DNA of 64,000 bases from Elusimicrobium minutum Pei191 (GCF_000020145.1 NC_010644.1:1116001-1180000), one strand, 5' to 3'. Shown: positions 37,170 through 62,586, numbered from the stretch's first letter. The notes: a model not told the origin generated them from the sequence alone. Translations and numbers: made by a program.

Positions 37170-37180
37170 ATATATAGTAA

Positions 37181-37330
37181 GGAACTTCGGTAGGTGAGGC
37201 TCCTAGGGATACGGATTGATACCGCAAAGCAATGGAGACATTGCGAGAAGGTTATCAGACTATGTCGAAACCAAGGCATAATCTAACTCAATTTCACTGC
37301 CCTATAAAGCTAAAACTTGAACGGTGTCGG
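37181..37330 (+). ncRNA. M-box (ykoK-type) magnesium riboswitch
   Basis: The RNA leader shows the conserved M-box blocks in order: CTTCGGTAGGTGAGGCTCCT, GGATACGG...ACCGC, GAGACATTGCGAGAAGG (the CGAAAG-like loop region), GTCGAAACCAAGGC, CACTGCCCTATAAAGCTAAAA and a closing strand. It directly precedes an mgtA gene and is followed by an intrinsic terminator as expression platform. By family knowledge, high Mg2+ folds the aptamer and favours termination. Confidence 0.92.
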
Positions 37331-37405
37331 GTACAAAAAATATCCGTGCGAAACATAATTGTAAAACAACTTATTAAAAGCTGTTTTGATATAGCAATTT
37401 TTATT

Positions 37406-53833: not shown

Positions 53834-54115
53834 CTAACTTCTTTTAACCGAAGGCAGCGCCGCGCGTATACCAAATACCGCTAACGCTTCCGCAAAGCGG
53901 ATAAAGGCTTCGTTAGAAGCTATGTTTTTAATAAAATCAACAAGCCCGGTTACGCCGTTAATTCCTGTTAACTGCTCAACAAACATTAAAAGCGCTTCTA
54001 ACATAATTATCGCCGCTGCGATATAAGTTTTTTTACCCGATAAAAAGTTTTGTAAACCGGAAAAAAGGTTTTTTAACTTACTCGGAACAAAAAAATTAAG
54101 TATTTTTTTAATCAT
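53834..54115 (-). CDS. Holin-like small membrane protein
   Basis: A 93-residue protein with one clear membrane helix (TYIAAAIIMLEALLMFV) and a second moderately hydrophobic helix (FIRFAEALAVFGIRAA). It is the last gene of the cluster, next to the endolysin. Size, topology and position suggest a phage holin that lets the endolysin reach the cell wall. A GGAGAA site precedes the ATG. Confidence 0.65.
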   Translation of the reverse strand: MIKKILNFFVPSKLKNLFSGLQNFLSGKKTYIAAAIIMLEALLMFVEQLTGINGVTGLVDFIKNIASNEAFIRFAEALAVFGIRAALPSVKRS

Positions 54116-54203
54116 TTTTTCTCCTTCTTGGGGACTTTATATCCCGTCTTATAAATATCAAAAGAAAAGGATATTTTACTTCCCAAAATCTGTTTTAAAA
54201 GTC

Positions 54204-54677
54204 TTATAAGCATTGTTTCTTGCCAAAATCTTTAACCGCGCCGTCTTCTATAATAAAGCTTTCAAGAGACCTTGTTTTTGTTCTATACGGATAACCTAAA
54301 CTTATATGTATCCAAGACGAGGCCCCAAATTTTTCCCATATAAGCTGGCCGTAAAAAAGGTTTGAATTTCTAAGACGCAAAAAAATTTCCTCATTAGAAA
54401 CTTCTTCTAAAATAAAATCGGCCGCTTCGCCTTTTATATGCTGGCTGTTAGGCGCGCCGCCCAAAACTTTGTTTAAATCTGCGCATCTGAAAGCCGAGGT
54501 AATAAGCGGTTTTTTAGCGTACATATCATACACCCGTTCTAATATGTCTGCGCAAAGATTGTATAGCGCGTCTTTATATATAGCGGCTTCTATAATGTTA
54601 GATTCGGCAAAATTTTTATTATCGGTTTTCGCCAGTTCATAAAAAGAAAAGTTTTTACTTAATTCAAAATCGTTCAC
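54204..54677 (-). CDS. M15-type peptidase (phage endolysin)
   Basis: A 157-residue D-Ala-D-Ala carboxypeptidase-like enzyme (peptidase M15A). Zinc ligands are in SQHIKGEAADF (HxxxxxxD) and SWIHISL (second His); ITSAFRCADLN is the conserved substrate segment. No signal peptide is visible, as expected for holin-dependent release. It would cut peptidoglycan for particle release or injection. It overlaps the upstream small membrane protein by ATGA. Confidence 0.88.
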   Translation of the reverse strand: MNDFELSKNFSFYELAKTDNKNFAESNIIEAAIYKDALYNLCADILERVYDMYAKKPLITSAFRCADLNKVLGGAPNSQHIKGEAADFILEEVSNEEIFLRLRNSNLFYGQLIWEKFGASSWIHISLGYPYRTKTRSLESFIIEDGAVKDFGKKQCL

Positions 54678-54928
54678 TTTTTACCCCCCATAAGTATTTG
54701 TTTAATATCGCGTATATCTTCCGAAGAAGCGGATATCTTGGAATTCAAAACCAAATAATTTTGCTCAACTGCATTTAAACGTTGTTCAATATTTTCAAGC
54801 TTTTTAGGCGTTGTGATAGTTGATGCCAGCCAAAGAGAAAAGGATATAAACGCCGCTATAATAAAAATAATTGTTTTAGGTATTTCCATATACAATTTAG
54901 GCTGTTCTATAATTTCTTCACGCGTCAT
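54674..54928 (-). CDS. Small membrane coiled-coil protein of the lysis module
   Basis: An 84-residue protein with one membrane helix (TIIFIIAAFISFSLWLAS) and a C-terminal coiled coil (LENIEQRLNAVEQNYLVLNS). It resembles XhlA/Rz-like lysis accessories in size and layout, but no specific family was recognised. It overlaps both neighbours by 4 nt. Confidence 0.6.
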   Translation of the reverse strand: MTREEIIEQPKLYMEIPKTIIFIIAAFISFSLWLASTITTPKKLENIEQRLNAVEQNYLVLNSKISASSEDIRDIKQILMGGKK

Positions 54929-57297
54929 AAAACCTCCACGGCGTCAATACGCATTTGCCAGTTTTCAAGGTCAAACTCAACCCCTTCTATGCGCATAAAA
55001 ACACCGTTTAATGATTTATCCTGCTTGTTTGTTATAAGAGGCTCGGCGTAAGTTATTTTAAGGATATCGCCCAAATCCAATTGCGGAAGGAATTTGATTA
55101 TAATAACAGCACGTTTTTTTCTTTTACTCAAATAATCGTAAACTATTGCTGATATAGTGGCCGCCATGTCAACGCTGTCCGGCGGCAGTAAAGAAGCTGA
55201 AGCTAAACTAAGCTCACGCCTTCCGTTAATATCAATTGAATCGGGAAACCCTTCCCCCATTGTTTGCGGAGAGGCTGTCGCTTTATAGCCGCCAAAATCA
55301 GCGCTTATAACGTTATAAACGTAATCTACGCCGGAATTAATATTTTCCACCCGCACAATATCTTTAGAAGTTACTTCAATATAATTATTTTTATCTTCAT
55401 TTCTTGCGCGGAATAAAAATTTACTTTCCCGGTCAAAACCTATTTCAAAGGTGCTTAATTTGGAAAGTTCTTTCATAACATCAAGCGCGCTCATACCGCT
55501 TGTATTTACCATTCCTATATTGGCTTTACTGCTTCTCCATCCGAGCGACCAGGAATGCAAATAAGGTTTTAAAGAGGCGTTGTTAACGGTTAGCTTTGCC
55601 AGCCATCTTAATTGCGCGTAACGGGCCTGGCCGGAAGGAATTTCTCCGTCAGAAATAGCTATCCATCCGCTCCATTCTCCGTGTTCGGTTTCTTTAAATC
55701 GTATCTCACAGGCAGCTTCTACCCCGGAAGATACCGTTTGTGAAAGTTCAAATTTATCCCAAGAGCGGAAATTGCCGCCCAAATCAATTTCCCCCGATGT
55801 ATAACTGCCTTGCGGGCTGTAATCACAATACCAGTCCGGCGTAAAAGAAGCGTATTTAATATTGGAAATATTATTGCCTCCCGCCTGTGAATAAAAAACC
55901 GCTATTTGATAATTAGATACTTTATAAGTATTATCCGAACACAAAATGCCGTGATCAGTCCAAAATGAAACATTTATCGTTTTAGTAGGGCGGCTAAATA
56001 TTCGAAAGCTGCCGTCTTCATACCTTACAATCCTTATAAAGACGTCGCTTACCCTAAAAGCGTAATAATGTTCCTTACTTCCCAACAAGGCTAAAACGCC
56101 GTTATTTACCCGGTATATCCTTAAAATTAAAAACCCGTTTATACGCCTTTCAAAAGACAAAGCGTAACCGCTGGAACTTTGCCTTAATCCGTTATCGCTT
56201 ATAAAATGGTAAAAACATCTTTCACCGTCCCAATCGGGAGATGCGGAAAATTGCCACGTTCCGCAGGCTTTGTCCTGCCGGCTTCTTGCCGATACACACG
56301 CGTCGCTTAAAGAGCCGTTTATCATCACCCCGTTTACCGTTAAATTCCAGGAAACACTTGAGGTGGTTTCCATAACTTCCCATTCAAAATCAACATCAAA
56401 AGGAAATTCGGATGATAATGTAACGCTTGTCTTGTTATATTCAGTACCTTCGTATTTGCCTTTAAAAGGAAGTCCCGCGCCTTCTGAAAATTTATTAATA
56501 ACATTTGACCCGAAGGAAACCTCCTGTATATCTCTTTTATCTAGCATGGCGGCGTCAGCTATTTGTTTTATTATCCAGTTCATTTCTTTATCTTCATACC
56601 AATGGGAATATGAAAGCCAAATTTTTTCGTTTTCCTTTAGCGGATTTTTTAAACTAATTACAGCCGGCGTTTTATATATATTTAAATCAGAAACCTCGTA
56701 ATCATATGGGGAAAGAAGATTCGCGCTGTCATTAAAACAAAAACCGCGCCTTATTTCGTTTATCTTGGAAACGGAAGTTAATTGTGTGCATACGGAAGTT
56801 TCATTTAAAATAACAGCTTCCTCATTTAATGAGGTTAATTTTATTTCGCCGGCATCAATTTCCTGTAACTCGGCAAGACGTCCGGAAAGAGTAAAGTTTA
56901 CGGTTTTTTCCTCAGGGTAATAAACGGGCGAATTTAATATGTATCCTTCAAAAACAGGAACCGTTTCCGCGCCGCCCCGGCATACCGCGCCGGCGTAAAT
57001 AATAATTTTACTCTTGTGTATTATAGAATCTTCCTCAAAAAAAGAACCTCCTTCCCTAAACTCATTATTTTTATTTGAAAGCGTTATAACCGTATTCGGA
57101 GTATTCCACACGGCGTAATCCTCATTGTCTAATTTCCATTTAATTGAGGATATTTCAACAATCTTTTCCGATATATCTTGCACCGGATTAAAGCCGCCGC
57201 CGGGGTCCTTCTTACGGGGGAATAAAAAAGCCTTCTTTATATATTTGGGATTAGAAAGTTCTAAAGCGTTTTTTAAGTTTTCGGATATTTTTTGCAT
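54925..57297 (-). CDS. Phage tail tip / hub protein
   Basis: A 790-residue protein, the largest of the cluster. The N-terminus (SISEK-like start, VEISSIKWKLDNEDYAVWNT) and C-terminus (KRAVIIIKFLPQLDLGDILKITY and LENWQMRIDAVEV) have the all-beta style of baseplate or tail-tip hub proteins. The central part (CEIRFKETEHGEWSGWIAIS) resembles beta-sandwich carbohydrate- or receptor-contact domains. Position after the Dit-like gene supports a hub/fibre role in host contact. The exact family is not identified. Confidence 0.7.
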   Translation of the reverse strand: MQKISENLKNALELSNPKYIKKAFLFPRKKDPGGGFNPVQDISEKIVEISSIKWKLDNEDYAVWNTPNTVITLSNKNNEFREGGSFFEEDSIIHKSKIIIYAGAVCRGGAETVPVFEGYILNSPVYYPEEKTVNFTLSGRLAELQEIDAGEIKLTSLNEEAVILNETSVCTQLTSVSKINEIRRGFCFNDSANLLSPYDYEVSDLNIYKTPAVISLKNPLKENEKIWLSYSHWYEDKEMNWIIKQIADAAMLDKRDIQEVSFGSNVINKFSEGAGLPFKGKYEGTEYNKTSVTLSSEFPFDVDFEWEVMETTSSVSWNLTVNGVMINGSLSDACVSARSRQDKACGTWQFSASPDWDGERCFYHFISDNGLRQSSSGYALSFERRINGFLILRIYRVNNGVLALLGSKEHYYAFRVSDVFIRIVRYEDGSFRIFSRPTKTINVSFWTDHGILCSDNTYKVSNYQIAVFYSQAGGNNISNIKYASFTPDWYCDYSPQGSYTSGEIDLGGNFRSWDKFELSQTVSSGVEAACEIRFKETEHGEWSGWIAISDGEIPSGQARYAQLRWLAKLTVNNASLKPYLHSWSLGWRSSKANIGMVNTSGMSALDVMKELSKLSTFEIGFDRESKFLFRARNEDKNNYIEVTSKDIVRVENINSGVDYVYNVISADFGGYKATASPQTMGEGFPDSIDINGRRELSLASASLLPPDSVDMAATISAIVYDYLSKRKKRAVIIIKFLPQLDLGDILKITYAEPLITNKQDKSLNGVFMRIEGVEFDLENWQMRIDAVEVL

Positions 57298-57298
57298 A

Positions 57299-57952
57299 TT
57301 AACGCTCCGTCAGGTTTAGTTCCAAATCAAAAAGACCTGTTTTAATATTAAACTTTTCAGAAGGGGGTTTTATAAGGGCTAATTCATAAACCGCGCTTTC
57401 ATCTAACCCCGGGTTAAGTTCAAAAATTAAAAAAGAATATTTATCAAAAGCTTTTAATAAGTTTTCTTTTAGTTTAAAACCGCAATTGCTTATTACAAGG
57501 GTTCCCCCCGCTTTTTGATATTCTTTCCAAAGCATTAAAGAGCCGTTGTTTAAATAAAAATGCCCTTGCTTACTGTAATCGGCCCTTGTAAAAGAAACTG
57601 AGGTATTGCCTAAATTAAAAAGTTTTTTTACCAGCTTAAAACCGCTGGCTCTAATAGGATCATCAGCCATTAAAGTAATATTTAAAGAAACGGCGCTTGT
57701 CTCATTAAAATTAATAAACATATTGGGCGCTATTATTTCCCTGTTTAAAAATATTTCCACCCCGTTTTTTAAAACAACGGTTTTAATATTAGTTTCTTTA
57801 AAAAACAAAGCGTCAAAAGTTTCTTCTTTTTCAAAATTTACACTAAATTCTTTAAATAATTCTTCAAACTCAAAACCGTTGTAAATATCGGGCGCATTTA
57901 ACTTTGTAAACAAACCGGGGGTATAGATATTAATGGAGGAGTATTTAGTCAT
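57299..57952 (-). CDS. Putative distal tail protein
   Basis: A 217-residue protein between tape measure and tail hub, where siphophage and GTA clusters encode the distal tail (Dit) protein. Its size fits. The sequence is mostly beta-strand, with no diagnostic motif recognised, so the call rests on position and length. It overlaps the tape-measure stop by ATGA. Confidence 0.5.
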   Translation of the reverse strand: MTKYSSINIYTPGLFTKLNAPDIYNGFEFEELFKEFSVNFEKEETFDALFFKETNIKTVVLKNGVEIFLNREIIAPNMFINFNETSAVSLNITLMADDPIRASGFKLVKKLFNLGNTSVSFTRADYSKQGHFYLNNGSLMLWKEYQKAGGTLVISNCGFKLKENLLKAFDKYSFLIFELNPGLDESAVYELALIKPPSEKFNIKTGLFDLELNLTER

Positions 57953-58647
57953 AAAGAAACCTCAGTGCTTTTCTGTTTGCCGATTTTATAGTTAATTTTG
58001 GCGTATTCCACCGCCCAGGAAGCCCCCCGCCTTGCCGCGGAGGAAACTTCTTCTGCCAGTGTTCTTGCATCAAGCCCGCCCAAGCCGCCGTTTACGGTTA
58101 CGGGCGTGTTAACCGTAATATTAACACCGCCGCCGTTTATGCCCCCGCCGCTATTTGGAACTGAATATTGTTTTATTGAAGAAACCACATCCTTAGGCAA
58201 AACATATTCCCCTTCATGCAAAAGATACGGGCCTGTTTTGCCTATAGGGCCGCCGCTGCTTCTGGACCCCAGCATCCCCCCTATTCCGCCGCCAAATAAG
58301 TTCATAACGCCGCTTAAAGCGGATTTTGCTATCATCTGCGTTATCATGCTTGTAAAAGACTGGGTAATGGAAGCGAAAGTTTTTTTTGTAAGATCTTCTA
58401 AATTTAAAAAACTTTTAGAGGATTTATCAAAAAATTTTTGCATATGCGAGTTTGACCCTGCCGCCGCGCCGCTTATAAAGTTTTCCATTGCTTTAGAATA
58501 AGCGTTTGTTTTAACGCTAAGCTCTTCAAAAGAACATCCTATTTCGCGTGTGGTTTTGCCGGCTCTTGTTTCGGCCTCTTCAAAACCTTTGGGGTTAAAA
58601 ACCGCTCCAAGTTCTATAAAAAATTTACCTGCTTCTGTTTCACTCAT
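57949..58647 (-). CDS. Very short tail tape measure protein
   Basis: A 232-residue protein. The C-terminal part has the usual tape-measure end, GGPIGKTGPYLLHEGEYVLPK, in pieces, after a Gly-rich hydrophobic stretch (SALSGVMNLFGGGIGGMLG). The N-terminal half is helical. Most siphophage tape measures are 600-2000 residues; at about 0.15 nm per residue this one predicts a tail near 35 nm. From memory, the Rhodobacter GTA tape measure is of similar size (about 220). It starts inside the last codons of the frameshifted chaperone. Confidence 0.8.
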   Translation of the reverse strand: MSETEAGKFFIELGAVFNPKGFEEAETRAGKTTREIGCSFEELSVKTNAYSKAMENFISGAAAGSNSHMQKFFDKSSKSFLNLEDLTKKTFASITQSFTSMITQMIAKSALSGVMNLFGGGIGGMLGSRSSGGPIGKTGPYLLHEGEYVLPKDVVSSIKQYSVPNSGGGINGGGVNITVNTPVTVNGGLGGLDARTLAEEVSSAARRGASWAVEYAKINYKIGKQKSTEVSL

Positions 58648-58891
58648 ATTTAATTCCGATATTTTCTAAATTTTCTTCTGTTTCTTCCGTAGTTTCCACA
58701 GAGGGTAAAAACACCTCCGCGAAAACGCCGGCCAAAGCTTTTCTTTGCCTGGCCGCGGCCCGGCAGGCCCATACAAGCCAGCTTACGGAATGATTAAGAA
58801 TATATTCGGTTGTATACCCGAATACGGACGCTACAAGCCCTACGGCGTTCGAAACCGCGTCTAAATTTTCAACTTTTCGAACGCAGATTTG
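58640..58891 (-). CDS. Tail assembly chaperone, frameshift-expressed extension
   Basis: This frame has no ATG. It joins the chaperone gene at 58861-59223 by a -1 ribosomal frameshift at AAATTTC. The joint product would read ...ICANF then QICVRKVENLDAVSNAVG..., giving 111 + 83 = 194 residues. The extension carries AAARQRKALAGVFAEVF and an acidic end. This is the gpGT-type arrangement of tailed phages. The TTG at 58903 is not considered a real start. Confidence 0.85.
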   Translation of the reverse strand, partial: QICVRKVENLDAVSNAVGLVASVFGYTTEYILNHSVSWLVWACRAAARQRKALAGVFAEVFLPSVETTEETEENLENIGIKYE

Positions 58892-58897
58892 AAATTT
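58845..58897 (-). promoter_or_regulatory. -1 programmed ribosomal frameshift signal
   Basis: On the minus strand the slippery heptamer A-AAT-TTC (58891-58897) is in the correct zero-frame phase (GCA AAT TTC). A 6-nt spacer follows, then a perfect 10-bp stem GCGTTCGAAA/TTTCGAACGC (58875-58884 with 58845-58854) closing a 20-nt loop. Heptamer, spacer and stem all fit known -1 signals. Confidence 0.88.
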
Positions 58898-59223
58898 GCG
58901 CAAATCTCCTCAAAATTATTTACTTCCGTAATCGTTTTGATAAGAAGGGAAAGCTCTTGCATGGTAATACTTTCGGCTATGGGGCAATTTTCATCTAAAG
59001 CGAAATTGCTTAAAATATTTATAATTCTGCCCGCATCTTTTTCCGACGAGGCTTTAATAATTTTTAAAATAAAATTACCGTTTTTATCCTTGGAAACCTC
59101 ATTAAAAACCCCGCCTATCAAACTGCCTAAACATATTGTTTGCTTAAGGGTAAAAGGCTTAATTTCAATATCTTGGCCTAAAATATTTATTTTTATTTTT
59201 TTTCTGTCAATAAATATGTGCAT
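58861..59223 (-). CDS. Tail assembly chaperone, zero-frame product
   Basis: A 120-residue helical protein between the tail tube and tape measure genes, the standard position of the gpG-type chaperone. Most ribosomes would stop at 58861; a fraction shift to the extension frame. FTLKQTICLGSLIGGVFNEV and ITMQELSLLIKTITEVNNFEE are typical of chaperone helices but no named family was recognised. An AAGG site precedes the ATG. Confidence 0.82.
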   Translation of the reverse strand: MHIFIDRKKIKINILGQDIEIKPFTLKQTICLGSLIGGVFNEVSKDKNGNFILKIIKASSEKDAGRIINILSNFALDENCPIAESITMQELSLLIKTITEVNNFEEICANFKSAFEKLKI

Positions 59224-59228
59224 TTTGA

Positions 59229-59735
59229 TTAACCTTCGGTTACAGTTCCAAAACGTTGGTTGGAGGGCTTTTCCGTATCAGCCAAAACGTTAAACTCTAT
59301 ATCGGCAACAGTTTCACCGTCTCTTTTATAAACCTGTGTTGTTTTGCCGTTTATTTTACATTTCCAAAATGTATATTTCCTGTTTTTACCCTTCGGGCCT
59401 TTAACATTTATATAAACCGTGTAATACCCGCCGTCTGCGGTAGTAAGGTTAAGCCCTGCCGAGCCTTCATATTCAAGCCCCATGGCTGCGGCTAAATTTG
59501 TTAAAGTGGCCTCAGCCATAGTTGTTTTTATTTTTAAAGATTCCGAGGTTACCACCTGGTCAACGGCCGCAAGGTATTGGTCTACCATAATATCCTGAAG
59601 GGAAGTATCGTGCTCAATAGTTACGCCGCCTTTAATTAAACCCAAGTTTCTTGAATTTTCTTCCCCGATTCCATAAGGCGCTACTTGAATGGTATTTTCC
59701 CCCTGAACGCCAACTACTATATTTGTAAGTGCCAT
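59229..59735 (-). CDS. Major tail (tube) protein
   Basis: A 168-residue protein forming the tail tube. Typical text: LGLIKGGVTIEHDTSLQDIMVDQYLAAVDQ, in two pieces, and ADIEFNVLADTEK near the end, the beta-sandwich pattern of tube proteins. Position between the tail terminator and chaperone genes fits. A GGAG site precedes the ATG. Confidence 0.85.
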   Translation of the reverse strand: MALTNIVVGVQGENTIQVAPYGIGEENSRNLGLIKGGVTIEHDTSLQDIMVDQYLAAVDQVVTSESLKIKTTMAEATLTNLAAAMGLEYEGSAGLNLTTADGGYYTVYINVKGPKGKNRKYTFWKCKINGKTTQVYKRDGETVADIEFNVLADTEKPSNQRFGTVTEG

Positions 59736-59740
59736 AAAGT

Positions 59741-60136
59741 TTACTCCTGTTTATTTTTATATTTGAATATAAAGCTTAATGTACGGACATTTCTGTTAAG
59801 GTCGTCCGTATAGTCAGAACAAGCCGTTCTGGCCGAATAGAAAAGAAAACAATTTTCTAATTCCAAATTAGATCTTTCCTCGAAAAGCCCGTACAGCGTT
59901 TGAGATATATCTAAAATGTTTTCAAAAAGAAGAGATGTTATTGTAAAAGATATAGTTTCTTCTTTTAAAATTTCCTCCCTTTTAATGCCGCTGTTATTTC
60001 TGTAAACTATAAACGGCGCCAAAGACATTATTTTTGCCGTGTTAGGATATATTTTGCTGTCTTCTCTTGAGGCTGACAGCAGCGAAGATAATTTTTCGTT
60101 TGAAATAAGATATCCGTACAAATCCTTTGTCAGCAT
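59741..60136 (-). CDS. Tail terminator / completion protein
   Basis: A 131-residue protein in the position of the siphophage tail terminator (gpU or DUF3168-type). MLTKDLYGYLISNEKLSSLL and APFIVYRNNSG match the usual start of that fold (short helix, then a beta-strand with a PYIVY-like motif). It overlaps the preceding 50-codon gene by 7 nt. Confidence 0.7.
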   Translation of the reverse strand: MLTKDLYGYLISNEKLSSLLSASREDSKIYPNTAKIMSLAPFIVYRNNSGIKREEILKEETISFTITSLLFENILDISQTLYGLFEERSNLELENCFLFYSARTACSDYTDDLNRNVRTLSFIFKYKNKQE

Positions 60137-60282
60137 TTTCCCTCCTTTAAAAATTTTATCAGGGCTTGTTTTATACTTTCAGAATCCTTAAAATCCGTAT
60201 AAATATTAAAAGTTTTAAGTTTTTCTTTAAAAACCTTAAAAAGATCTTTAAAATCCTTGGAATTAAGATTAATTTTAAACAT
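60130..60282 (-). CDS. Small 50-residue protein of the neck region
   Basis: Not recognised. The frame MFKINLNSKDFKDLFKVF to IKFLKEGKC is Lys- and Phe-rich and likely helical. It is coupled on both sides: TAATG with the head-closure gene (after GGAGGTAAAG) and a 7-nt overlap with the tail terminator gene. Placement matches the slot of gp10-like neck proteins, but it is much shorter. The tight coupling argues that it is real. Confidence 0.65.
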   Translation of the reverse strand: MFKINLNSKDFKDLFKVFKEKLKTFNIYTDFKDSESIKQALIKFLKEGKC

Positions 60283-60608
60283 TATTCCTTTACCTCCAGA
60301 TAGAGGCATAAATACTCGTGCCCGCCGCCCATATTTAGTTGTCCGGTTATATGATATATTTTGCCTTCTATAATTATTCTTGAGGTTTTTTCCTCTATAT
60401 TTAGAAACTCGAGATATAAAACATGGGTTGAATGTTTATATTGTGAAAAGCCCGTGATCTTTTCCGCCGAACTTCTTGTTCTAAGGCGGCATTTTATGCC
60501 TTTATAAAAAGGCTGCCACGCTCGTTTCACTTCCCCCGTGGTTAGAGATTGCTCCTGCAAAGAAATCTCTATATCGCATACTTTATTTAATAATGAAGTA
60601 AAACTCAT
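60282..60608 (-). CDS. Head-tail stopper (head closure) protein
   Basis: A 108-residue protein of the phage head-closure type (HK97 gp7/SPP1 gp16-like, DUF1506/Phage_H_T_join style). It has the pattern VCDIEISLQEQSLTTGEVKRAW..GIKCRLRTRSS..HVLYLEFL..IEGKIYHITGQLNMGG, a beta-barrel with the usual Y.V.GI.. end. It follows the adaptor gene with a 4-nt overlap. Confidence 0.8.
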   Translation of the reverse strand: MSFTSLLNKVCDIEISLQEQSLTTGEVKRAWQPFYKGIKCRLRTRSSAEKITGFSQYKHSTHVLYLEFLNIEEKTSRIIIEGKIYHITGQLNMGGGHEYLCLYLEVKE

Positions 60609-61153
60609 AACCCTAATTTCCTATAATTTTCAAGCAAATCTAAGGTAATTTCAGGCATTGAATCGTTATATTCACCATAGCTTACGCTGTAATCGCCAAG
60701 CGTTTCTGCCTTTATATTACCCTCATTTTTTAAATAGATATGCTTTATCCAATGCCAAAGCGCCAGTTTAATATCTTTGGGAACGTTTTGTATTGTATCC
60801 GCTATGCCCGTTTTGTAGTTTATACAAACAGTGCCGAGGAAAGAACCTTCAATCTTTCTGATAATACCGTTAGTTCTATCAACATTAAACATTGAAAGAT
60901 TTATCTTCTCGGAATTTAAGGTTATCTCAAAAACTTCTTTAAGAGGATAAAAATTAGTTTGCATCGTTTTGGAAGGACGGTCAAAAAAATGAAATTCCGT
61001 TTCTATAATCCTTTCAATAACAAAACGGCCTAAATAAACCTCAACAGCCGAGGATAAACTTTCAACTAATATTTGTAAAACCTCATCATGGGTTTCGCCG
61101 CCAATGTTTAAATATTTTTTAACTTCCTCTAATCCGGTTAATAATCGCGTCAT
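60605..61153 (-). CDS. Head-tail adaptor (connector) protein
   Basis: A 182-residue helical protein of the HK97 gp6-like connector family: EVKKYLNIGGETHDEVLQIL, VESLSSAVEVYLGR, FYPLKEVFEI and KDIKLALWHWIKHIYL are typical. It forms the ring below the portal. It sits directly after the capsid gene, as in phages and GTAs. Confidence 0.83.
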   Translation of the reverse strand: MTRLLTGLEEVKKYLNIGGETHDEVLQILVESLSSAVEVYLGRFVIERIIETEFHFFDRPSKTMQTNFYPLKEVFEITLNSEKINLSMFNVDRTNGIIRKIEGSFLGTVCINYKTGIADTIQNVPKDIKLALWHWIKHIYLKNEGNIKAETLGDYSVSYGEYNDSMPEITLDLLENYRKLGL

Positions 61154-61167
61154 ATATTTTTTCCTAT

Positions 61168-61196
61168 ATACCGGTGTTATTTGGTAACACCGGTAT
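61168..61196. other. Perfect hairpin between capsid and adaptor genes
   Basis: ATACCGGTGTTA/TAACACCGGTAT, 12-bp perfect arms and a 5-nt loop, just after the capsid stop (61206). There is no T run, so it is probably an mRNA-stabilising or processing hairpin that favours more capsid than downstream product. Confidence 0.6.
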
Positions 61197-61205
61197 AAAA
61201 TTAAT

Positions 61206-62408
61206 TTATTTGAATTTAAGGCAGCTAAAGGCGCTTCCGAATGTAACGTCTATTGAAAGTGCCTGAGTAAAACGCAGCCAGGTTTGGTCTAACATAAATG
61301 CGGAGTCGGCCGTTTCGGAAGCCGCGTTCCATGAAGAGGCGTCCTGTGAAACTTTTACCGCCATTTCCTGTCTGGGTGAGATAAGAAGGTGTTTATTAAA
61401 ACGTCCGAAAAGAGCTATCGTTTTATCACCGTCGACATCATTAGGTATTTTAGAGCTTACGACATAAGGAGTGTTCCAAATTGTAGCCGGAGCGCCGCCC
61501 GCGGGGGGCTGCCACAAATAATTGCCGTTAGAGTCTTTTAATTTTAAAAGTTTGCTAAGACCGGTGCGGGAAAGGACCAAAACACTGCCTGCGGCGTTAG
61601 CATCGTTTAGTTGAAAAATTAAGTTAGCAATATCATCAAAAGAAACGTTTTGCCCGCCCATTGTTACATTTTGTAATCCTGCCGTGTTATAAACGCCGTT
61701 AAAAGGATCGCCGGCGGCCGTGTCGCCAACTAAGGAAACTCTTTCAACTTCCAATGCCATGGCTTCAGCCACAAGCTCGGATAAGAACTGCGTTAAATTA
61801 ATGGCGCTGTCTCTTATAAGCTCGTCCGTGCATTTGATAACTGTTGCCATTACTTTTGCTACCTGTTCAATTTGCCCAAACGCGGGGTTATTAATGCCCC
61901 TTACACCGTTCTCGGCAACCCAGCCTACGCTTAAATTAGAAATCTGCTTAGGTATTTGCCTTTTCCAAGAGCCCATGGGCACAACGTTGGCAATTTGCAT
62001 AATGGGTGAAATATCGGCCATTATACGGGCAACATGGTTTGAAAATTCCGTGGGAACAAGATATCCGCCGCCGCCAGCGCCTGATTCGGCTAAAACTGAT
62101 TTGCTGTCCGCGAAAGAAGCGTGCCTGTCTTTAGCCGCTAAAAGAAAGTTTTTCATGTTGCCAAACTTTCTGCCGTAATCGCTTGTCCAAGGTTTTTCAG
62201 GCGCGTGTTTTGAGGATTTTGAAAATTCGGCAAAACGTTCCAGAACATCGTCCGCCGAGGTAGGAAGTAAAGCCTTTCTTTGTTCGGGGTGAACTTTTTT
62301 TACTAAATCAGAAACTATGTTTTCAGCCTTTTCTTTAGTAATGCATGAATCGATTTTAGTTTCTAAAGTTTTTCTTAATTCTTTTATGGATTGCATTATT
62401 TCGTCCAT
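61206..62408 (-). CDS. HK97-fold major capsid protein
   Basis: A 400-residue protein. Residues about 1-60 are helical (KELRKTLETKIDSCITKEKA), like the delta/scaffold domain that is removed by a protease in HK97-type phages. The capsid fold follows: GGGGYLVPTEFSNHVARIM, VPMGSWKRQIPK, DELIRDSAINLTQFLSELVA and RQEMAVKVSQDASSWNAAS, in pieces. No prohead protease gene is present in the window. A GGAG site precedes the ATG. Confidence 0.93.
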   Translation of the reverse strand: MDEIMQSIKELRKTLETKIDSCITKEKAENIVSDLVKKVHPEQRKALLPTSADDVLERFAEFSKSSKHAPEKPWTSDYGRKFGNMKNFLLAAKDRHASFADSKSVLAESGAGGGGYLVPTEFSNHVARIMADISPIMQIANVVPMGSWKRQIPKQISNLSVGWVAENGVRGINNPAFGQIEQVAKVMATVIKCTDELIRDSAINLTQFLSELVAEAMALEVERVSLVGDTAAGDPFNGVYNTAGLQNVTMGGQNVSFDDIANLIFQLNDANAAGSVLVLSRTGLSKLLKLKDSNGNYLWQPPAGGAPATIWNTPYVVSSKIPNDVDGDKTIALFGRFNKHLLISPRQEMAVKVSQDASSWNAASETADSAFMLDQTWLRFTQALSIDVTFGSAFSCLKFK

Positions 62409-62506
62409 TAAAATTCTCCGTTATTAAGAAGTATGGACAAAAAAGCGGCACGCCTCTTTACTTCGAGCGTACCGTTTATAAAATTATTTAAAAAAATAAG
62501 ATTCAT
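62408..62506 (-). CDS. Leader ORF coupled to the capsid gene
   Basis: A 32-codon frame (MNLIFLNNFINGTLEVKRRA then AFLSILLNNGEF) starts after an AGAGG site and ends TAATG, sharing one base with the capsid ATG. The intrinsic terminator at 62439-62474 lies within it, so translation of the leader could decide whether transcription reaches the capsid gene. It could also be a chance frame or a remnant of an upstream phage gene. Confidence 0.4.
   Translation of the reverse strand: MNLIFLNNFINGTLEVKRRAAFLSILLNNGEF
62439..62474 (-). terminator. Intrinsic terminator upstream of the capsid gene
   Basis: Minus strand CGGTACGC/GCGTGCCG (one G-U pair) with a 13-nt loop and six T. It may end the O-antigen-ligase transcript, or act as an attenuator between the cluster promoter (62558-62586) and the capsid gene. 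A small upstream hairpin TAAGGG/CCCTTA lies at 62516-62533. Confidence 0.75.
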
Positions 62507-62557
62507 CCAAACCTCTAAGGGGTATTCCCTTATGATTTTGACGACTCTCCGAACAAA

Positions 62558-62586
62558 AGTATACCACAGGTTTTATGCTTTGTCAA
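62558..62586 (-). promoter_or_regulatory. Consensus promoter of the phage-like cluster
   Basis: Minus strand TTGACA (62581-62586), 17 bp, TATACT (62558-62563). The -35 box overlaps the stop region of the O-antigen-ligase gene. The predicted start near 62551 gives a leader of about 140 nt before the capsid ATG. Confidence 0.7.

Follow-up and report, generated by a model that had tools for sequence, protein, structure and literature searches.

The genes of RcGTA, a gene transfer agent (GTA) of Rhodobacter capsulatus, are spread over five loci (PMC9662315). For BhGTA / VSH-1, in Brachyspira, terL is outside the structural cluster, is single copy, and has co-diversified with the host (PMC9662315). 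In the gut bacterium Faecalibacterium, FpGTA is encoded by two operons, about 125 kb apart, and packages host DNA (PMC12946183). Here, we describe a set of particle genes in Elusimicrobium minutum Pei191 that is scattered as in RcGTA. The largest part, a capsid-tail-lysis cluster, lies within a 64,000-base stretch of DNA (the window), corresponding to bases 1,116,001-1,180,000 of the single-contig, 1,643,562-base genome. Like RcGTA, the system has genes for an HK97-type siphovirus-like particle, a short tape measure, and vertical inheritance. Conversely, the phylum and the phage ancestor are different, and the E. minutum packaging genes are detached from the capsid gene. FpGTA differs in being podovirus-like and from Bacillota, and BhGTA / VSH-1 has no shown homology to the E. 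minutum genes. Packaging was measured for the former, and transfer demonstrated for the latter, whereas both are predicted for the E. minutum system.

We consider it probable that the cluster is a domesticated, GTA-like viriform of the family Elusimicrobiaceae that works as a gene transfer agent, and would package and deliver host DNA. Genera of the family are coded g1, that of E. minutum, to g6. Note that genome-wide statements are the outcome of searches, not an end-to-end tiling of the genome by stretches. A first-pass annotation of the window described thirteen intact, tightly packed, minus-strand genes from capsid to lysis, without portal, terminase or protease, and placed packaging genes elsewhere in the genome. 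Open reading frames (ORFs) and profile matches bear out the first part, and none of the cluster genes was identified as encoding a portal, terminase or protease. The packaging genes were found, one copy each, at two distant places. The only PF04860 portal match in the genome (771.3-772.5 kb) is followed by an S78-type protease gene, at C1:770720-772517, about 400 kb from the capsid cluster. TerL (936.8-938.0 kb), recovered using the TerL of a g4 relative as the query, has a small TerS-like gene ahead of it. This locus (C1:936444-937986) is about 230 kb from the capsid-tail-lysis locus (C1:1169834-1178408). With loci 160-400 kb apart, a single head would be unlikely to hold all of the particle genes. 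The ATPase and nuclease motifs of TerL are intact, and we assign the protein to the PBSX/Terminase_3 type. When PF03354 was tried as a terminase probe, only weak 694-residue matches resulted; the true TerL, of PF04466 type, was missed. Portal and TerL each have one match in E. minutum and in 20 of the 21 genomes searched; where a relative has a second match, as in a few cases, this is weaker and comes from another prophage. Prophages that are unrelated, and whose capsid, portal and TerL genes are distant, were seen within the family at G007:C3, G023:C9, G076:C39 and G087:C2; for G076 and G087, they include a second set of these genes. Within g1, the portal-protease cassette has lysA on one side and, on the other, the same TPR/ksgA genes; it is inverted in genome G068 compared to E. 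minutum (locus L082 versus L080).

The arrangement of these genes varies across the family, and the contiguous order of g4 and g3 is the ancestral one. In g4 (locus L048), TerS, TerL, portal, protease, capsid and adaptor genes are together on one contig, and g3 (L049) has the same order from TerL onward. For g6, and part of g5, portal-protease adjoins TerS-TerL, with both away from the capsid gene. In g1, and the remaining g5 genomes, the two pairs are separate. Hence, the operon broke up stepwise.

Among 90 family genomes surveyed, the capsid gene (61-88% identity, single copy) was present in 21 of 24 outside g2, the other three being incomplete. None of the 66 g2 genomes has the gene, and their few TerL matches look like other prophages. 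Since RpoB places g2 next to g1, we conclude that g2 lost the particle genes. In a wider set of 341 genomes from the phylum, capsid relatives of at least 61% identity were confined to Elusimicrobiaceae; outside the family (about 250 genomes), identity did not exceed 26%. A tree of the particle genes has nine of ten splits in common with RpoB, where random relabelling gave a maximum of four. The cluster is syntenic in 18 relatives and is flanked by feoB in g1 and five g5 genomes. Similarly, the TerS-TerL and portal-protease loci (A and B) keep their neighbours within g1. For close pairs, the ratio of nonsynonymous to synonymous substitution (dN/dS, NG86 method) was 0.01-0.30 over the particle genes, including 0.03-0.06 for capsid and 0.03-0.08 for portal. 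Core genes are intact in all genomes examined, and have been inherited together over at least five genera. Seeming stops in genes of two relatives proved to be alignment run-ons, not breakage.

These results bear on two other explanations. First, the genes could be a decaying prophage remnant, drifting, with parts scattered by rearrangement. The lack of integrase and replication genes in the cluster, the scattering itself, and a shrunken gp10-like gene in g1, would all fit. Intact core genes, strong purifying selection, joint inheritance and shared promoters (see below) do not, and we regard decay as highly improbable; for the core genes, dN/dS rules it out. Second, a still mobile phage or satellite might assemble from scattered modules, and a related phage does exist. 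Against this, the genes occupy three to four chromosomal loci, single copy, at the same places in relatives, and their tree tracks the host. Furthermore, neither the cluster nor the surroundings of the packaging genes yielded an integrase, replication or lysogeny module. Mobility is thus hardly credible, and the system does not have the makings of an active temperate prophage. The first-pass annotation had proposed a maintained particle, and named as grounds for doubt an occupied attachment site in close relatives that lack the cluster, or a full prophage in relatives of which the cluster is a truncated remnant. Comparison of synteny and dN/dS revealed neither an occupied site nor a decaying prophage; relatives have the intact cluster at the same place, under strong purifying selection, which upholds the proposal.

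The related phage is represented by IMG/VR contigs 3300023257_000134 / 3300022868_000068. These have a collinear TerL-to-hub module, encoding a capsid 57%, and a protease 63%, identical. Replication-type genes follow, assigned by eye as a RecA-like ATPase and a small single-stranded DNA-binding-like protein. The phage portal is longer than that of E. minutum. The tape measure has 747 residues in the phage, about 370 in g3, and 218-247 in g1, g5 and g6, so a short tail is predicted. The tail tube of 168-174 residues compares to one of 291 in the phage. We propose that a tailed phage entered an ancestor of the Elusimicrobiaceae. Its genes for replication and integration would then have been lost, along with much of the tape measure, and inheritance would since have been vertical. 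Capsid, protease and portal would form a small head, for TerL to fill with chromosomal DNA. The short, lectin-bearing tail would deliver this DNA, and the lysis genes would release the particle.

The thirteen intact ORFs of the window are close-set: the capsid ORF starts at 62408, and the run ends at 53834 with the holin-like ORF. These, and associated elements, are as follows:

61206..62408, minus strand: HK97-fold major capsid protein, 400 residues (PF05065, 5.6e-45; PHROG 10)
60605..61153, minus strand: head-tail adaptor, 182 residues (PF05135, PHROG 442)
60282..60608, minus strand: stopper / head completion protein, 108 residues (PF05521, above cut-off)
60130..60282, minus strand: fourteenth short ORF, 50 residues, at the place of the gp10-like gene
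59741..60136, minus strand: putative tail terminator, 131 residues (by position; syntenic in 18 relatives)
59229..59735, minus strand: tail tube, 168 residues (PHROG 476/2175)
58861..59223, minus strand: tail assembly chaperone, first frame, 120 residues (position; conserved)
58640..58903, minus strand: tail assembly chaperone, -1 frame extension (overlap in the -1 frame)
58891..58899, minus strand: GCAAATTTC, containing the -1 slippery heptamer A AAT TTC
57949..58647, minus strand: short tape measure, 232 residues (PHROG 24 among others)
57299..57952, minus strand: putative Dit-like distal tail protein, 217 residues (by position; syntenic)
54925..57297, minus strand: tail hub/tip, 790 residues, with an inserted lectin-like domain (AlphaFold model)
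54674..54928, minus strand: putative spanin-like lysis accessory, 84 residues, single transmembrane segment (by position)
54204..54677, minus strand: M15 peptidase endolysin, 157 residues (PF08291, 6.9e-16)
53834..54115, minus strand: putative holin-like protein, 93 residues (position; conserved)

Most roles given by the first-pass annotation stood. Profiles identify the capsid, adaptor, stopper, tube, tape measure and M15 endolysin, and a structural model the hub. The names 'terminator', 'Dit', 'spanin' and 'holin' are only putative, from position and size. The thirteen ORFs were all recovered; the fourteenth had not been counted. Its counterpart, a gp10-like gene that follows the stopper gene and precedes that of the terminator, encodes 35-50 residues in g1 and 120-142 in g3, g5 and g6 (120-152 across relatives and the phage). 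The chaperone is frameshifted, as annotated, with the second frame being -1; the heptamer, A AAT TTY, is kept in 17 of 17 homologues, including that of the phage. In solved-structure comparison, the chains nearest to the capsid are the RcGTA capsids 6tba/6tb9, and this match (7e-13) is distant. We do not place the system in the Rhodogtaviriformidae, which are close kin of RcGTA in an alphaproteobacterial lineage; capsid relatives of at least 61% identity were, as noted, confined to Elusimicrobiaceae. The tail tube does not have the C-terminal domain of the 289-291 residue phage and g3 versions. The hub had no sequence match in profile searches. By structure (AlphaFold, pLDDT 85), it is similar to the T5 tail tip 7zhj (8e-13), the lambda tip, and a CBM66/ERGIC-53 lectin. 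PHROG and Pfam searches gave no family match for the terminator-like protein, nor for the Dit-like protein, which also had no solved-structure match. A Pfam search with the 84-residue lysis accessory gave none. In all g5 genomes, the M15 endolysin gene is not in the cluster (not searched for elsewhere in g5), and the spanin-like gene is directly followed by the holin-like gene (L036, L045 and others). Outside the cluster, the window has an M-box (magnesium) riboswitch at 37179-37332 (Rfam RF00380, 85 bits).

A lectin-bearing hub, and a leucine-rich repeat (LRR) fibre-like operon in g5 (see below), could target competitors. PBSX-like elements are precedents for domesticated killing particles. 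Hence, the particle might be bacteriocin-like, or have some other non-transfer role, with packaging genes serving only for head maturation. We think this unlikely. Portal, protease, TerS and TerL, with its ATPase and nuclease motifs, are under strong selection, and a killing tail alone needs none of them. We therefore favour a GTA-like particle. Six viriform criteria for GTAs have been set out, which include packaging of mostly random host DNA, an own genome too large or scattered for complete packaging, and delivery of the DNA to other cells (PMC9662315). Three of the six are seen here. There are caudoviricete-derived proteins (capsid, portal, protease, TerL, adaptor and tail families, with a collinear phage), endogenization at several loci (three structural loci and a regulatory locus on one chromosome), and vertical co-diversification (RpoB splits, conserved flanks). 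On available evidence, we class the system as GTA-like, rather than as a proven GTA. Some points count against even this. Both the particle and its packaged DNA are deduced from the genes; TerS is a putative assignment, from position and homology only. In g1, the gp10-like gene is shrunken and no fibre locus was seen. The root of the particle tree is unsure, given the long branches of g3, g4 and the phage.

Regulation was missed by the first-pass annotation. The scattered operons have a promoter and leader in common and, as described below, there is a separate regulatory locus. Ahead of TerS, portal and capsid genes, in g1 and g5, is TTGACA, about 17 bases, an extended -10 element (TTTGCTATATT or variants), and then GGGAGAGYCGTCA, which opens a hairpin. 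In the window, the promoter and leader (62490-62586) are part of the capsid unit, and comprise:

62558..62586, minus strand: promoter, TTGACA-17-TATACT, the top match in the genome to leader model R1
62539..62550, minus strand: leader motif GGAGAGTCGTCA, also present ahead of portal and TerS, and the complement of the antisense RNA element described below
62490..62549, minus strand: leader hairpin, then a T-run, an intrinsic-terminator-like attenuator (-20.4 kcal/mol, z score -2.4)
62438..62473, minus strand: second terminator-like hairpin in the leader (from sequence)

Homologous leader hairpins have z scores as low as -6.6, and a T-run follows the hairpin at both portal and capsid loci. The loci have the 5' arm in common, but differ in loops and 3' arms. 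This is more than a terminator alone would require.

Model R1 was built from 36 leaders, including the three of E. minutum. Its best three places in the E. minutum genome are exactly the TerS, portal and capsid loci, and the next match is to the promoter half only. The absence of further full-length matches is informative. In four g2 genomes, there was no full-length R1 leader. R1 also found a g5 locus on which it was not trained: an operon encoding proteins of 99-101 residues, 391-397 residues (LRR), and about 60 residues. This unlinked operon is likely to encode the receptor-binding fibre of the particle. It was not found in g1. Examples are G085:C1:91324-92875 (L328), L325, L326 and L334, with a weak PF13306 match. 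Matches before glgP (G069), a gene of 74 codons, and groES, were judged to be chance or promoter-only. In one g5 clade, a leader-like promoter precedes the gene for a lysine-rich repeat protein of 73-74 residues (MAEKVLKLGVxREEGFLYFIDKDGDV...; L327, L329, L331).

A dyad, TTTGATACNNTNGTATCA, coincides in part with the g5 capsid promoter. The pattern occurs once or twice in each g5 genome searched, and was absent from g1, g6 and reversed-pattern controls. On one side of the second copy is the gene for a CI/S24-like repressor and, on the other, a divergently transcribed RNA that has several helices and a length of about 110-130 bases. We consider GATACNNNNGTATC sites to be putative repressor sites. 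The RNA is followed by a conserved gene for 95-104 residues and, in several genomes, another for 120-141 residues. The g5 RNA carries GAGACGGCTCTCCC, which is the leader motif in reverse complement. Hence, an antisense element was predicted in the E. minutum genome. This genome does have the exact complement, GACGGCTCTCC, an 11-mer with a single occurrence (621,979). Note that one chance 11-mer match is unsurprising; the weight rests on its context. Nearby are a divergent helix-turn-helix (HTH) repressor gene, a multibranched RNA, a homologous gene for 95 residues, and a promoter that was already an R1 promoter-only match. An independent repressor scan found the element at 14 of 14 Elusimicrobiaceae loci, several from species already used before, and at none of eight unrelated HTH genes. 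Compensatory changes are evident in the closing helix, and second helix, of the RNA. RNA-leader duplex energies are -14 to -28 kcal/mol, with z scores, relative to shuffled leaders, of -2 to -6. The CI/S24-like repressor did not align with any solved S24 homologue. Cleavage of the repressor in an SOS response is doubtful because, in our reading of alignment A2, the position of the catalytic Ser is not conserved. Orf95 gave a weak model, with no fold match, and had no relative in viral contigs. The phage contigs have neither leader nor antisense motif in the parts read. The g4 operon has remained whole, and GTATCA/TGATAC repeats in its TerS promoter fit direct repression before the split.

We tentatively suggest that a natural antisense RNA, controlled by a CI-type repressor, acts in trans as an antiterminator on leader hairpins of three unlinked operons (four in g5). 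The scattered GTA may thus be reunited as one regulon, with the leader having evolved at operon break-up. Briefly, repressor bound at the dyad would keep the RNA, and in g5 also the capsid operon, off, and portal and capsid leaders would stop transcription early. Once the repressor leaves, the fourth-locus RNA, via GACGGCUCUCC, would pair with the 5' arm of the leader (GGGAGAGCCGUC), the first 12 or so bases as they emerge. Pairing would block the terminator arm, allowing read-through, so that all loci would come on together. At TerS, pairing would free the start codon region.

Alternatively, GGGAGAGYCGTC could be bound by protein (a DNA- or RNA-binding antiterminator, perhaps Orf95/Orf132), with the inverted copy at the fourth locus being another such site, not antisense. 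Conservation of Orf95/102 and Orf132 beside the RNA is consistent with this. However, the copy is always complementary in orientation, and is within a conserved multibranched RNA with covarying helices, which makes a protein site rather unlikely. A different possibility is that the RNA represses by forcing leader termination. The immunity RNAs of P4 and N15 are phage-derived, structured, and pair with leader RNA to cause termination, as does the P4 CI RNA. In E. minutum, the RNA would bind the terminator hairpin itself, at its 5' arm. Hence, pairing should open the hairpin and prevent termination, rather than force it. Moreover, in g5, the RNA promoter has the repressor dyad in common with the capsid promoter. 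We consider a repressing RNA improbable.

Our preferred model, of trans antitermination, also faces difficulties. The TerS leader does not have a T-run. Recovery of the E. minutum leaders by R1 is partly by construction, because they were in the training set. Finally, equilibrium cofolding (ddG, the change in free energy, of -0.7 to -14) indicates a clear gain for some leaders and little for others. Hence, strand invasion would need co-transcriptional timing. To our knowledge, no RNA-leader regulon has been described for RcGTA. In the synthetic switches called small transcription activating RNAs (STARs), an RNA acting in trans stops a terminator hairpin forming upstream of a gene (PMC10465534). 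The E. minutum RNA would use the same principle, in a natural setting.

No GTA was reported for Elusimicrobiota in the open-access literature searched. If our interpretation is correct, GTAs would have arisen independently in this phylum of gut and termite symbionts. The Elusimicrobiaceae keep intermediate stages: an operon that is whole (g4), partly split, fully split, or lost (g2). These stages make it testable how a phage becomes a scattered organ of its host and, with E. minutum in culture, particles can be sought directly. The RNA circuit, if true, would offer an explanation of how dispersed particle genes are coordinated, and the synthetic switch would have its counterpart in nature.
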